This document shows, one piece after another, positions 12,035-64,000 of a stretch of 64,000 nucleotides of DNA; the stretch's first letter is position 1, and each line of letters starts with the position of its first letter. The stretch is from Mariprofundus sp. (GTDB lineage: Bacteria > Pseudomonadota > Zetaproteobacteria > Mariprofundales > Mariprofundaceae). The translations under genes were made by a program, and so were the position numbers. The notes beneath the pieces were generated by a model. It saw only the letters and a list, made by a program, of their open reading frames with translations, had not been told where the DNA came from and made no database searches. Where the stretch lies: positions 1 through 64,000 of the forward strand of contig JAJFLE010000017.1 in NCBI GenBank assembly GCA_021772835.1. Direction: 5' to 3'.

Positions 12035-12123
12035 TCGAACCACGAATTAACACGAATAAGGGTGTGGTAGTGCTGGTTGGGTAGCTTTAGGTTCGTGTTT
12101 ATTTATGTTTGCTCGTGGCTCGA
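12035..12123. repeat. Imperfect inverted repeat of CCACGAA/ACACGAA type
   Basis: The left arm TCGAACCACGAATTAACACG (12035 on) matches the complement of the right arm, which ends TTGCTCGTGGCTCGA at 12123. Arms of about 25-30 bases flank about 33 bases. It could fold as an RNA hairpin between two converging genes or be an old element remnant. Confidence 0.5.
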
Positions 12124-12126
12124 ATG

Positions 12127-12180
12127 CATGCCCCTCACCCTGCGGGCGGGCGTTCAGCACATCCAAACGGCAATCCTGCG
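12127..12180 (+). repeat. TCCT-loop hairpin repeat, partial copy
   Basis: CACCCTGCGGGC, then a decayed palindrome (GGGCGTTCAGCACA), then TCCAAA and AATCCTGCGG. The order of constant linkers is the same as in the array at 63.3-63.6 kb (CACCCTGCGGGC, palindrome, GTCCAAAT, TCCT loop). The stems have lost pairing, so this looks like an old copy. Confidence 0.55.
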
Positions 12181-12196
12181 GTGAAATAGTTTTTGC

Positions 12197-20242: not shown

Positions 20243-20318
20243 GGGCGCTTAGCTCAGCTGGGAGAGCAACGGCCTTACAAGCCGTAGGTCGCAGGTTCGA
20301 GCCCTGCAGCGCCCACCA
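20243..20318 (+). tRNA. tRNA-Val (anticodon TAC), copy 1
   Basis: 76 bases with encoded CCA. The acceptor stem GGGCGCT pairs with AGCGCCC. The anticodon loop CTTACAA gives TAC. The T arm is GCAGG-TTCGAGC-CCTGC. Identical to copy 2 at 20563. Confidence 0.97.
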
Positions 20319-20415
20319 TATTAAAGGTTCTGCAGACAAGATGCAGAGCCTTTTTCCGATCAGCGTATTAAGTAGTTGATTTTTGGGGAGCAAGTTATTA
20401 CTTTGCGCCCCGCTT

Positions 20416-20492
20416 GGAGCGGTAGTTCAGTTGGTTAGAATGCTGGCCTGTCACGCCGGAGGTCGCGGGTTCGAGTCCCGTCCGCTCCGCCA
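20416..20492 (+). tRNA. tRNA-Asp (anticodon GTC), copy 1
   Basis: 77 bases with encoded CCA. The acceptor stem GGAGCGG pairs with CCGCTCC. The anticodon loop CTGTCAC gives GTC. It differs from copy 2 in one anticodon-stem base (GCTGGCC here, GCCGGCC in copy 2). Confidence 0.97.
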
Positions 20493-20497
20493 CATCA

Positions 20498-20525
20498 AGG
20501 CCCCCGCTTTGCGGGGGCTTTTTTT
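20498..20525 (+). terminator. Intrinsic terminator after tRNA-Asp copy 1
   Basis: GCCCCCGC-TTT-GCGGGGGC stem followed by a run of seven T. It separates the two tRNA-Val/tRNA-Asp pairs, so each pair may be its own transcript. Confidence 0.9.
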
Positions 20526-20562
20526 AATATTGTAAGGTCTATCCAGCAGGCCTTACTGCAAT

Positions 20563-20638
20563 GGGCGCTTAGCTCAGCTGGGAGAGCAACGGCCTTACAA
20601 GCCGTAGGTCGCAGGTTCGAGCCCTGCAGCGCCCACCA
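20563..20638 (+). tRNA. tRNA-Val (anticodon TAC), copy 2
   Basis: The same 76-base sequence as at 20243-20318, with encoded CCA and anticodon TAC. Part of a tandem duplication of the Val-Asp pair; the spacers between genes have diverged. Confidence 0.97.
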
Positions 20639-20689
20639 TTTTAAAGTGAAAGATGCCCTGTAAAGATCAGGCTCTTGCTAAAACCGCTT

Positions 20690-20766
20690 GGAGCGGTAGT
20701 TCAGTTGGTTAGAATGCCGGCCTGTCACGCCGGAGGTCGCGGGTTCGAGTCCCGTCCGCTCCGCCA
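20690..20766 (+). tRNA. tRNA-Asp (anticodon GTC), copy 2
   Basis: 77 bases, anticodon GTC, encoded CCA. One base in the anticodon stem differs from copy 1 and restores a full G-C pair. The last 19 bases, with downstream sequence, recur at 20946 onward. Confidence 0.97.
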
Positions 20767-20770
20767 CACC

Positions 20771-20806
20771 AAAGCCCCTGATGGAAACATCGGGGGCTTT
20801 TTCTTT
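20771..20806 (+). terminator. Intrinsic terminator after tRNA-Asp copy 2
   Basis: AAAGCCCC-TGATG and CATCGGGGGCTTT pair around GAAA, followed by a T-rich tract. A standard end for the second tRNA pair. Confidence 0.85.
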
Positions 20807-20865
20807 GCGGTTTGCGTTATACGATCTTAATCTGGAGTGGATGGGTGCGAGAACACGCATTCGGG

Positions 20866-20945
20866 TTCGATAAAATCGCAGGAGCGATTTTAAACGTCGG
20901 AGGAACGACGACGGCCCGTAGGGCGAAGGGCAGGAAGCCCTGAGT
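20866..20945 (-). repeat. TCCT-loop hairpin repeat, copy between tRNA-Asp repeats
   Basis: Read on the minus strand: AGGGCT-TCCTG-CCCT, then CGCCCTACGGGC, then GTCG-TTCCTCC-GACG, then TAAAATCGC-TCCT-GCGATTTTA. These are three short perfect or near-perfect stems, each with a TCCT-containing loop, joined by a CCCTACGGGC linker. This is the same design as the array after priA. Confidence 0.7.
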
Positions 20946-20994
20946 AGTCCCGTCCGCTCCGCCACACCAAACCCTACGATGGAAACTACGTTTA

Positions 20995-25755: not shown

Positions 25756-25852
25756 ATGTTTTTGAAAGGAATAATATTGGCAGGCGGTTCCGGCACACGT
25801 CTGCATCCATTAACGCTTTCGGTTAGTAAACGGCTGATGCCGGTGTACGAAA
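25756..25852 (+). pseudogene. Truncated duplicate of the rfbA 5' end
   Basis: The first 30 or so codons translate to [20 protein letters not shown] and [11 protein letters not shown], nearly identical in protein to the start of the full rfbA at 26007. The DNA has diverged mainly at third positions. Homology stops at about 25852, where a hairpin-repeat unit begins. The frame then continues to 26010 with no sugar nucleotidyltransferase sequence. Confidence 0.85.
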
Positions 25853-25915
25853 AATTGGTATGGACTACCAATTTGGGCGAGCTATGTAGCTCGCCCAGTA
25901 GGGGTGGAGTACAGG
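25845..25915 (-). repeat. TCCT-loop hairpin repeat, copy inside the rfbA remnant
   Basis: On the plus strand: AAATTGGTA-TGGAC-TACCAATTT directly followed by GGGCGAGCTA-TG-TAGCTCGCCC, then AGTAGGGG. On the minus strand this reads CCCTACTGGGCGAGCTA, a stem, then CAAATTGGTA-GTCCA-TACCAATTT. It therefore has the same linker-stem-linker-stem order as the copies after priA. Both stems are perfect, so this copy looks recent. Confidence 0.7.
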
Positions 25916-26006
25916 ATGTGCGACATCACAAAGCGATAATTGATCCATCCGATTATTTGGCACCCATGACTGTGGGGACCGTCATATCAATAGAGCAGGA
26001 GTCACA

Positions 26007-61118: not shown

Positions 61119-63272
61119 ATGCCAACAGCAGACGTGCAAAAAATCTATGTGGAAGTGGCAGTGTTTTCACCGCTTCCGGGAACATTCACCTATCAATGGC
61201 CTGAAAGCCTTGGTTCGCCTGTAACCGGTATCCGTGTTCAGGTGCCCTTTGGCAGGAGCAGGCGCTTTGGCATGCTGATGTCTACGGCTGTAGCTGTTGA
61301 TCCCGCTATCGATTATAAACTGGTGCTGGACAGGCTCGATGAACAACCACTCTTTGATGATAAGCGACTGCAGTGGCTGGAGCGTGTGCGCCGCTACTAC
61401 CTGACTCAACCGGGCGATCTGTGGAGCAGTGCGCTGGGCTGGGCATCGCAGGACGATATTCGCCGTTTCCGTTGTAAGGACTGCGAAGTGCTTGGCCAGT
61501 CGGAACCTGCGTTGGCTGGCCTGTTCCGTACGCGCGCAGCGATTGCATTGAAAACCATGATTGAACGCGCTACTCAGGTGACTGGCATTCGTCATGCAGT
61601 GAACTGCGCCCGTGCAGATGGCTTGATTGAAGAGCTTAGTTCCGAACCGATGTGGGTATCGCAGGGTGTCGGGTTTGATAAATCCGCAGGACTCACGCCC
61701 AACAAGGCTCAGCAGCAGGCCATTGCTGCAATCACGGATGCCCTGCAAAAGTTTCAGCCGTTTCTTCTGTTCGGGCGCACAGGCTCGGGTAAAACCGAGG
61801 TCTATCTGAGAGCTTCCGAATCCGTGGTTCAGAACGGTGGTCAGGTACTGGTACTGGTGCCGGAAATCGGCCTTACACCCATGTGGCTGGCACGCTTAAA
61901 ACAACGCTTTGAAAACGTGGCTCTGTGGCATTCGGCCATGACAGCCAAAGAACGGCTGGTTGTGCGCCAGCACCTTGATCAAACCGAAATTCTCATTGGC
62001 ACACGCTCGGCTCTGTTTTTGCCTCTACCAAGGCTGGCTCTGATTGTGGTGGATGAAGAGCATGATGCCAGTTTCAAGCAGCAGGAGGGCATGAGTTATT
62101 CCGCCCGCGATATGGCTGTGTTACTGGCACAGGAGCTGCACCTGCCCATTGTGCTGGGTTCAGCTACACCGAGTCTGGAGAGTTGGAGACAGGTGCAAAC
62201 GAGTCTGTACCAACGGCTTGATTTGCCGGATCGAATCAACCCGGAAAATATGCAGACTGCCGCGCAAGTGATTGATATGCGCAGTGTGGAATCACCTGTA
62301 TCCGATGCTCTGTTGGCAGCATTGCGACAAACGCTGGCCGACGGGGATCAGTCGATCCTGTTTCTCAATCGCCGTGGTTATGCACCGGCGTTGCAATGCA
62401 CGGCTTGTGGTGACGTGCCTGAGTGCCCGTCCTGTTCCATGCGGCTTACCCTGCACCGCCGGGCGGCTTCATTACGATGCCACACCTGCGGCTACCGGCG
62501 CAGGGTTCCCAAAACCTGTGAATCCTGTGGTGAGGCAGCATTTCTGCCTTTGGGTGAGGGAACTGAGAAGCTAGAGGAATGGTTGACTGAGATGTTGCCA
62601 ACACTGCGTTTTGCCCGCTTCGACCGCGATGTCTTTACCAGTCATGCCCGTCTGGAAAACACACTGGAACAATTTGAAGAAGGGGCGCTGGATTGTCTGA
62701 TCGGAACCCAGATGCTGGTCAAGGGGCATGACTTTCCCAATGTCACACTGGTGGGTGTGATCAATGCCGACCTGGGTGTCAGCCTGCCTGATTTTCGTGC
62801 CTCCGAGCGCTGGTGGCAGCAGATGACACAGGTGACAGGGCGTGCAGGCCGTGGTGATAAACCCGGGCGGGTTATGATTCAGACACGCATGCCCGAGGCC
62901 GGCTGGTTTAGTCGTATCTCCGAGACAGAGGCGGAGGCTACGTTGACTGATGAACTGCAGTTAAGAGCGATGCTGAGCTTCCCGCCTTTTGCGCGCTGGG
63001 TGCGCATCGTTTGCTCATCGACAAAGGTGGAGCGCGCAACGCAGGTCGCGACGTCCATTGTCGGGCAATGTAAAAAAATTGAAGGCCTTCAGATTGCCGG
63101 GCCTATGCCGTGCCCGATGGAACGCGTGGCAGGTAAATATCGCATAGAAGTGGTTCTGCGTGATGCCTCGCGCAAACTTCTGCCATGGAAGCTGGAACCT
63201 GTGATGATGGCCATGAAAGCACCTTCTGATGTACGGGTGAAAGTGGATGTTGATCCGCAGGATATGATGTAG
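61119..63272 (+). CDS. priA: Primosomal protein N' (replication restart helicase)
   Basis: 717 residues. It reloads the replisome at stalled forks. The N-terminal 3'-DNA-binding domain begins VEVAVFSPLPGTFTYQWPES. Helicase motif I is LLFGRTGSGKTEVYL (about 216); motif II is VVDEEHDASFKQQEG (about 310). Two zinc-binding sites use Cys at about 426-470 (CTACGDVPECPSC, CHTCGYRRR, CESCGEAAF). IGTQMLVKGHDFPNV and TQVTGRAGRGDKPG are motifs V and VI. Its stop lies within the first palindrome of the following repeat array. Confidence 0.97.
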   Translation: MPTADVQKIYVEVAVFSPLPGTFTYQWPESLGSPVTGIRVQVPFGRSRRFGMLMSTAVAVDPAIDYKLVLDRLDEQPLFDDKRLQWLERVRRYYLTQPGDLWSSALGWASQDDIRRFRCKDCEVLGQSEPALAGLFRTRAAIALKTMIERATQVTGIRHAVNCARADGLIEELSSEPMWVSQGVGFDKSAGLTPNKAQQQAIAAITDALQKFQPFLLFGRTGSGKTEVYLRASESVVQNGGQVLVLVPEIGLTPMWLARLKQRFENVALWHSAMTAKERLVVRQHLDQTEILIGTRSALFLPLPRLALIVVDEEHDASFKQQEGMSYSARDMAVLLAQELHLPIVLGSATPSLESWRQVQTSLYQRLDLPDRINPENMQTAAQVIDMRSVESPVSDALLAALRQTLADGDQSILFLNRRGYAPALQCTACGDVPECPSCSMRLTLHRRAASLRCHTCGYRRRVPKTCESCGEAAFLPLGEGTEKLEEWLTEMLPTLRFARFDRDVFTSHARLENTLEQFEEGALDCLIGTQMLVKGHDFPNVTLVGVINADLGVSLPDFRASERWWQQMTQVTGRAGRGDKPGRVMIQTRMPEAGWFSRISETEAEATLTDELQLRAMLSFPPFARWVRIVCSSTKVERATQVATSIVGQCKKIEGLQIAGPMPCPMERVAGKYRIEVVLRDASRKLLPWKLEPVMMAMKAPSDVRVKVDVDPQDMM

Positions 63273-63570
63273 CCCCGTCGTGGGGCTACACCCTTCGGGC
63301 AGCTATGCAGCTGTCCAATCCGGCTGTCCTGCCGGATTGTGATGTGAGCCCATCCTGGGCTCACACCCTGCGGGCTCGCTAAAGCGAGTCCAAATCTACT
63401 ATCCTGTAGATTTGTGATGTGATTCGACCTTTCCTGGGTCTCACCTTTCAGGCGGGCTAACGCGCGTCCAAATGGCGTCCTGCCTTTTTGTAGGCCCCTA
63501 TCCTGGGTTCACACCCTGCGGGCGTGCTAAAGCACGTCCACAATTGTACAGGATCGTACAATTGCACGCG
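63269..63570 (+). repeat. Array of TCCT-loop mosaic palindromes
   Basis: A chain of short inverted repeats, each with its own stem: GTAGCCCC/GGGGCTAC, AATCCGGC-TGTCCT-GCCGGATT, GTGAGCCCA-TCC-TGGGCTCAC, AAATCTAC-TATCCT-GTAGATTT, TGGCG-TCCT-GCC, AGGCCCC-TATCCT-GGG, ACAATTGTAC-AGGATC-GTACAATT. Between them recur CACCCTGCGGGC, then small palindromes such as TCGCTAAAGCGA and GTGCTAAAGCAC, then GTCCAAAT. Loops keep TCCT (or AGGA) while stems change. No open frame explains it. The first stem may act as the priA terminator. Confidence 0.8.
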
Positions 63571-63662
63571 TAAGCGCCTTGGAAAGGTGGCGCACATGGA
63601 CGTGCGCCATGATTATTTTTCAGGAAGCAGAATAACACGCATAAGCGCCCTGAAAGGGTGAA
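63564..63662 (+). repeat. Direct repeats and hairpin upstream of uvrA
   Basis: GCACGCGTAAGCGCCTTGGA (63564 on) and ACACGCATAAGCGCCCTGAA (about 63636 on) are direct repeats. Between them GGCGCAC-ATGGAC-GTGCGCC is a perfect 7-base hairpin. They continue the palindrome array but with a different unit. Confidence 0.6.
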
Positions 63663-63841
63663 AGATTTTGGCAGTAGTCAGTTTTCCGCTGGCACAAGGG
63701 AATTATCAACTGCAGAAGCCGGGGAAACACCTTTCTATTCATACCTGTATATTGATTTTCCTCTGCGTAACTTTGCGTACTCTGCGGGGAATGATTATGT
63801 TTTGAATCGTAGTGGTGGCCGAATAACTTTCCGGAGTAATA
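63663..63841. other. Intergenic region upstream of uvrA
   Basis: No gene supported. It carries CTCTGCGTAACTTTGCGTAC at about 63761, a common intergenic type related to the sequence at about 11924. A short open frame (63658-63852) has no ribosome site or family likeness. CGGAGTAATA is the likely ribosome site for uvrA. Confidence 0.45.
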
Positions 63842-64000
63842 ATGGACAATAATATCATTCGCGTCGAAGGGGCGCGGGTACATAATCTGAAGAACATCAG
63901 TCTGGAAATTCCGCGTGATAAGCTGGTGGTGATCACCGGTGTATCCGGCTCCGGCAAATCGTCGCTTGCTTTTGATACACTCTATGCCGAAGGACAACGC
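63842..64000 (+). CDS. uvrA: Excinuclease ABC subunit A, N-terminal part (cut by window edge)
   Basis: The first 53 codons are present: [20 protein letters not shown], then the first Walker A motif [20 protein letters not shown] and EGQR. This is the exact opening of UvrA, the damage-recognition ATPase of nucleotide excision repair. ATG at 63842 preceded by CGGAG. The rest lies beyond the window. Confidence 0.97.

Follow-up and report, generated by a model that had tools for sequence, protein, structure and literature searches.

A four-hairpin repeat unit of about 74 nt with conserved loops and freely varying stems, arrayed between priA and uvrA of Mariprofundus and found across Pseudomonadota

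In the accessible text of PMC3733652, REPs are single hairpins of 20-40 bp with an unpaired tag, and their families are defined by these tags. GTAG and CGTC REPs and BIMEs appear there as small dispersed intergenic palindromes, in tandem or inverted groups and mostly located 3' of or between genes, with no dedicated transposase for the CGTC REPs. The same portion presents the TIRYTs of Di Nocera and colleagues, Y1 genes bracketed by TIRs that share GGGGWSAS. ERIC, according to the available sections of PMC2759123, PMC2229807, PMC2267715 and PMC10969869, is ~127 bp long, has terminal inverted repeats and makes a TA target duplication. The ends of IS200/IS605 and the TnpA-REP substrates are asymmetric hairpins with meaningful loops (PMC8266576, accessible part), and the repetitive hairpin-forming elements of sponge mitochondria, some of which lie in gene regions and which insert in tandem, have conserved stems and variable loops (PMC2800124, accessible part).

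The unit described here comes from a window of 64,000 nucleotides of a Mariprofundus genome, the window being the whole stretch of DNA that was analysed. Like the GTAG and CGTC REPs and BIMEs it is a small dispersed intergenic palindromic repeat, found in tandem and inverted groups and mostly 3' of or between genes, and as with CGTC REPs it comes without a dedicated transposase. Unlike REPs, it has 74 nt, four hairpins (H1-H4), free stems, kept loops and no such tag; an unpaired GTAG is absent from alignments A1 and A2, the motif being found only inside some H4 arms. CGTC REPs are recognized by an unpaired CGTC tag, an 8-9 bp stem starting with A-T pairs, a loop of 4-5 and a CCA tail; in many units CGTCC precedes H4, which has 8 bp, but the CG is part of the H3 stem, the loop generally has 6 nt and there is no CCA tail. 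As an intergenic repeat with no known enzyme the unit also resembles ERIC, an enterobacterial repeat that hosts it as well; however, it is nested inside ERIC at two sites rather than being part of it, and is present without ERIC in Mariprofundus. Its asymmetric hairpin ends recall those of IS200/IS605, but no Y1 gene is linked to it, no guide sequences were identified in it and its stem freedom is far greater. Compared with the sponge mitochondrial repeats, the conservation of stem and loop is reversed.

We found no description of the unit in the accessible parts of the literature on Mariprofundus and Zetaproteobacteria repeats, RAYT/REP, ERIC and hairpin elements, the available sections of the four ERIC papers included, and a literature text search with six unit sequence strings returned no paper containing any of them. 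No Rfam family reached its gathering score over the window units or 12 other loci; at E up to 1 there were just two matches, far below gathering. Work by De Gregorio from 2005 and by Wilson and Sharp from 2006 is said possibly to describe ~70-bp ERIC insertions, and inserts of this size may already be in print.

Between priA and uvrA, positions 63265-63680 contain five clear units and one weak one (Table 1). An earlier, sequence-only reading of this DNA had placed an array of hairpins at 63269-63570; the array starts within the priA stop codon (63270-63272), reaches ~63610 and has a weak copy extending to 63680. The hairpins, kept loops and shared linkers of that reading are present in the sequence, and folding of 63260-63620 as DNA gave -95.4 kcal/mol, compared to a mean of -54.1 (sd 4.1) for 100 dinucleotide shuffles (z -10.2); as RNA, z was -9.2. 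The loops of H1 and H4 are kept (GTCGT, ATCCT, TTCCT and ATCCT for H1 in the array; TGTCCT, TATCCT and GTCCT for H4, plus AGGATC where the inverted copy shares its hairpin), whereas H3 does not have the constant TCCT loop proposed in that reading, and the AGGA loop it noted arose because unit 4 and inverted unit 5 share one H4. The linkers that recur in the array are CACCCTTCGGGC, CACCCTGCGGGC (twice) and CACCTTTCAGGC, together with GTCCAAT, GTCCAAAT (twice) and GTCCACAAT. A second linker type, that of unit 5 (CACCTTTCCAAGGCGCTTACGCGTGC), has a pattern present in 9 of 23 genus genomes.

Table 1. Positions of the array units, neighboring genes and single units in the 64,000-nt window.
Feature	Positions	Strand	Evidence and remarks
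priA	61119..63272	+	TIGR00595, 554 bits
priA stop codon TAG	63270..63272	+	pairs with CTA 63286-63288; covaries in nine species
Unit 1	63265..63339	+	R1 match 55.0 bits, sequence; priA stop codon within H1 left arm
Unit 1 H4	63317-63338		loop TGTCCT
Unit 2	63340..63414	+	R1 match 72.4 bits, sequence; H1 63344-63364, H3 63375-63388
Unit 2 H4	63392-63413		loop TATCCT
Unit 3	63420..63490	+	R1 match 51.0 bits; stems less perfect; H4 loop GTCCT
Unit 4	63504..63564	+	R1 match 37.0 bits; H1 shortened in model match; H4 common with unit 5
Unit 5, inverted	63541..63609	-	R1 match 43.7 bits; second linker type CACCTTTCCAAGGCGCTTACGCGTGC
Degenerate inverted unit, weak	63613..63680	-	R1 match 12.3 bits, E 0.03
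uvrA start, truncated at window end	63842..64000	+	NF001503, positions 3-52 of 943
Single degenerate unit	12116..12183	+	R1 match 22.3 bits
Intact tRNA-Asp (GTC)	20690..20766	+	3' end repeated downstream, surrounding unit
Single unit in T-loop of tRNA-Asp 3' fragment (GGGTTCGA ... GTCCCGTCCGCTCCGCCACACCAAA)	20871..20947	-	R1 match 28.9 bits, sequence
Single unit	25851..25928	-	R1 match 31.8 bits

A typical H1 reads TGATTC-GGGCC-ATCCNT-GGCCC-TCA and is followed by H2 (CCC-NNN-GGG), H3 (for example CGAGC-TNAA-GCTCG), TCC and H4, which has an 8 bp stem and the loop TNTCCT. The linkers and the loops of H1 and H4 (ATCC, TNTCCT) are the conserved parts; the two ends of the unit, GATTCGG... and ...TTTGT, do not form an inverted repeat. 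A covariance model of 74 positions was built from 21 units and used to search the genome and its relatives. The family proved genome-wide and genus-wide. The outcomes that would have refuted the sequence-only reading were not observed: the array is not unique, its linkers are shared and its stems, as described below, covary. The genome itself has 18 matches to the core pattern (none to a reversed-pattern control) and at least 89 to the covariance model, which also finds matches in 22 of the 23 genus genomes, including Mariprofundus ferrooxydans PV-1, M. micogutta ET2 and Mariprofundus sp. KV among the carriers. In a sample of Pseudomonadota, 88 of 398 genomes and 39 of 212 genera have matches (E 1e-5), and about 20 families of sampled genomes, by a hand count, are joined by this one model. 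Copy numbers are lower bounds, since 150 of about 600-1470 candidates per genome were scored in the genus search and 12 in the phylum search. In G000, the end of contig C52 and the start of C76 (L009, L010) carry the same unit array; arrays therefore probably break assemblies and are undercounted. Genome G048, from another family, has ~115 copies (115 left-half and 114 right-half matches), and its unit had no match among plasmids and phages. Presence is patchy: of 5426 complete E. coli genomes, 674 have a match to the unit version of G333, which also matches 173 plasmid records, 171 of them from Salmonella; three E. coli loci and one plasmid were inspected closely.

The stems vary, as the sequence-only reading had noted, but they do not differ completely: H4 left arms mostly fit the loose pattern (A/C)A(A/T)(T/C)NNNC. 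In alignment A2, 96.2% of the structure is paired (82.7% when shuffled), and change on both sides is seen in 11 of 25 pairs (7.8 in shuffles; 6 of 500 shuffles reach 11). Because A2 was selected for good H4 stems, the test was repeated on units found by the H2-H3 core alone. These 107 distinct units have a mean of 6.10 of 8 Watson-Crick pairs in H4, compared to 4.10 with arms permuted between units (highest mean of 200 permutations, 4.36), which upholds the claim that stems covary. Sixty-three of them have at least 7 of 8 H4 pairs, comprising 28 distinct left arms and, in 43 cases, the TNTCCT loop; the 44 with fewer than 7 include a common imperfect type, AAACGGC/GCCTTTTT, and composites with inverted loops. 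Two-sided change reaches 24 of 25 pairs in a model-fitted alignment of 99 distinct rows, drawn from G048, from 20 genomes of other families and from a few stretches of E. coli and Salmonella. Some H4s combine the left arm of one type with the right arm of another, such as AAATCTTC-TGTCCT-GCCGGATT, seen in G002; recombination at the shared loop would give such hybrids, in line with the recombination between modules that had been suggested.

The hairpin at priA can be compared across species. The unit is fused to the priA stop codon in 10 of the 20 genus genomes with a PriA match and is absent there in ten. In nine species, a set that leaves out the degenerate G020, the stop codon (TAG or TGA) lies inside the left arm of H1 and the right arm matches it as CTA or TCA. 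This H1 is 97.2% paired vs. 81.3% when shuffled, with no G-T and 2 cells unpaired. Two-sided change occurs in 4 of 8 pairs, a number reached by 50 of 500 shuffles; none of the 500 reaches its 11 cells or its covariation score. With a stop codon as the left arm and a right arm that covaries with it in nine species, this hairpin preserves, in nature, a clean record of how a stem changes in pairs.

Insertion sites could be read where the unit interrupts another repeat. It fills site 1 of the E. coli ERIC (GTT^CG) in L178 and L179, site 2 (GGGGATT^CAC) in L180, and both in L175 and L176; at the argP-rpiA locus of a K-12 derivative (L181) the whole ERIC is missing. The duplication is at most one base at both sites, different ERIC copies being compared rather than one locus before and after. 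In the window and elsewhere, an intact tRNA gene is followed downstream by a second copy of its 3' part, and the unit sits in the T-loop of this fragment; the flanks of the window copy match tRNA-Asp at 24 of 28 positions. The surrounding stretch, 20243-20960, has tRNA-Val and tRNA-Asp genes as two alternating pairs, the 3' end of the last tRNA-Asp being repeated around the unit. A tRNA is found within 350 nt of the unit in 31 of 260 rows, which make 30 distinct places because L104 and L254 coincide. Inspection by eye showed the T-loop core (TTCGA, TCGAA or a variant differing at one base) at the junction in 20 of these 30, where a rough expectation for random sites is ~1%, in a non-random sample consisting mostly of best-scoring matches. 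Such junctions occur in Mariprofundus and in other families. In L172, the sequence around the unit at ~1501-1575 matches a tRNA-Leu located nearby, on its D-arm side and not in its T-loop. Both kinds of host, tRNA T-loop fragments and ERIC repeats, have sites of the form RTT^CR; elsewhere the consensus of the target is weak. Insertion at hairpin tips, which targeting of single strands might predict, was rejected as a general rule: flank complementarity was 3.65 vs. 3.37 permuted (highest permuted mean 3.76), and one site scored at least 8 where 0.76 were expected (75 deduplicated sites of 106).

On balance, with slightly better than even confidence, we read the array as a tandem, partly inverted pile-up of a ~74-nt non-autonomous element that we infer to be mobile and to be recognized by its fold, loops and linkers. 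Many Pseudomonadota families share the fold, the linkers and the loops of H1 and H4, and the stems are mainly constrained to pair; this combination of constant loops and joints with stems that pair well but are otherwise free points to a folded strand as what is recognized. H1 and H4 occupy the two ends of the unit and have similar loops, and the ERIC junctions, compared between paralogous copies, are clean. A MITE would have terminal inverted repeats, which the unit lacks. IS200/IS605 elements insert without target duplication, and the asymmetric ends and duplication-free sites of the unit would fit single-strand transfer of that type better than a classical MITE. A trans-acting strand-transfer enzyme, for which an HUH enzyme of the IS200/IS605 sort is the nearest model rather than an identified mobilizer, would recognize the folded strand through its loops and linkers and move it without duplicating the target. 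In Mariprofundus, edge-to-edge insertion of units and unequal recombination at identical linkers and loops could then produce arrays with shuffled stems.

The search for an enzyme bears on two alternatives. A REP/BIME family with unusually free stems, moved by a host RAYT (Y1 HUH) transposase, would explain the dispersed palindromes, their inverted and tandem groups and their 3' location, and Y1_Tnp matches do occur in 21 of 23 genus genomes (66 in all). We nonetheless consider this origin unlikely. Besides the absence of a GTAG tag, a unit match lies within ~1.5 kb of 3 of the 30 Y1 loci examined (one of the three weak), unit and Y1 numbers in 23 genomes are uncorrelated (Spearman 0.06, p 0.80), and Y1_Tnp matches are missing from 10 of the 22 genomes that carry units. 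Of four Mariprofundus Y1 loci inspected, three (L059, L063, L065) are bracketed by GGGGTCAG inverted repeats that are unrelated to the unit and resemble the TIRYT genes in the accessible text of PMC3733652. The REP-type transposase suggested by the sequence-only reading is not supported by any of these lines: Y1 genes in the genomes, units in their flanks, correlation of copy numbers, or the terminal repeats of the Y1 loci. A fourth Y1-adjacent unit (L035, G006 C20), which does favor a RAYT, is at a locus sampled for its unit and not for its Y1 gene. The Y1 frame there starts directly beside a unit without clear H1 and H4 and may be broken at its start. Neither a mobilizing enzyme nor the element-borne nuclease proposed earlier was found; a search of G048 for an autonomous form, with a gene between two unit halves, gave 115 left-half and 114 right-half matches (100 of each listed), among which a split copy may still exist. 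That the units are by-products of another mobile element, either integrase attachment-site remnants at tRNA genes or IS110-family remnants, seems very improbable, even though the T-loop fragments resemble attachment remnants and inverted units in G048 (L306-L310, L282), ~1.6 kb apart (range ~1.3-1.7 kb), enclose a repeated stretch that in L282, the one copy read, holds an IS110-family gene (PF01548, PF02371). Units fill the two ERIC sites without a tRNA or IS, and those of G048 are found within flanking repeats, without the appearance of IS ends.

Two further alternatives concern what keeps the stems paired. Units could be RNA modules, 3' hairpins that protect or end transcripts, selected for transcript folding and spread mainly by recombination. 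Of 43 sites surveyed, 23 lie between codirectional genes, 10 between convergent and 2 between divergent ones, 6 inside an ORF call, and 2 were not judged; orientation is sense at 19 of the 23 codirectional sites (p 0.003), or 15 of 19 with priA counted once (p 0.02), although ORF calls are crude and some sites orthologous. This bias suggests that transcripts may matter too, and the RNA fold is in keeping with this reading. Alignments fitted to the model contain more G-T than A-C (77 to 51 and 58 to 28), which would also fit, but such alignments favor G-T (A3 and A4 were fitted to the model, A3 retaining 150 of 195 matches). Selection on RNA should tolerate wobble, yet among 592 H4 cells (from 74 units in which 6 or more of the 8 positions pair) the 37 mismatches include only 3 G-T and 1 A-C, a scarcity that argues that both strands, and hence DNA, matter; H1 mismatches include 5 G-T and 8 A-C (in the 80 of 108 units where 5 or more of 6 positions pair). 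Copies at fixed sites within other repeats would moreover require a mobility step, and as a full account we regard the RNA reading as rather doubtful. Still less probable, in our judgment, are neutral palindromes kept perfect by arm copying through fork template switching, with no selection on pairing. Arm copying could produce paired changes with few intermediates, as at one H4 position of G048 (C-G 56, T-A 38, C-A 5, T-G 1, a hand count over 100 of 114 places), where the T-A form may, however, go back to one ancient change that later multiplied. Conservation is highest in the loops and linkers, to which arm copying gives no protection, and, hard as it is to separate selection on pairing from template switching, the kept loops favor selection. 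For the mobile element that we prefer, a role at mRNA 3' ends may be added, many copies being 3' of genes and in sense; we take it as secondary.

Dispersed palindromes are usually classed by sequence, and if a family keeps its loops and joints but lets its stems drift, its members would be filed as many separate repeats that look unrelated. More tentatively than for the array itself, we suggest that the units may belong to a class of mobile DNA across Pseudomonadota that is inherited and recognized by shape, with four hairpins, fixed loops and joints, nearly letter-free stems, insertion at RTT^CR in tRNA T-loop fragments and other repeats, and movement by an enzyme yet to be named. It can now be tested which enzyme reads the folded strand without reading the stem, and what makes hot spots of ERICs and tRNA T-loop fragments. 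If such a class exists, the ERIC inserts, the tRNA-side repeats and the Mariprofundus arrays would be one family.
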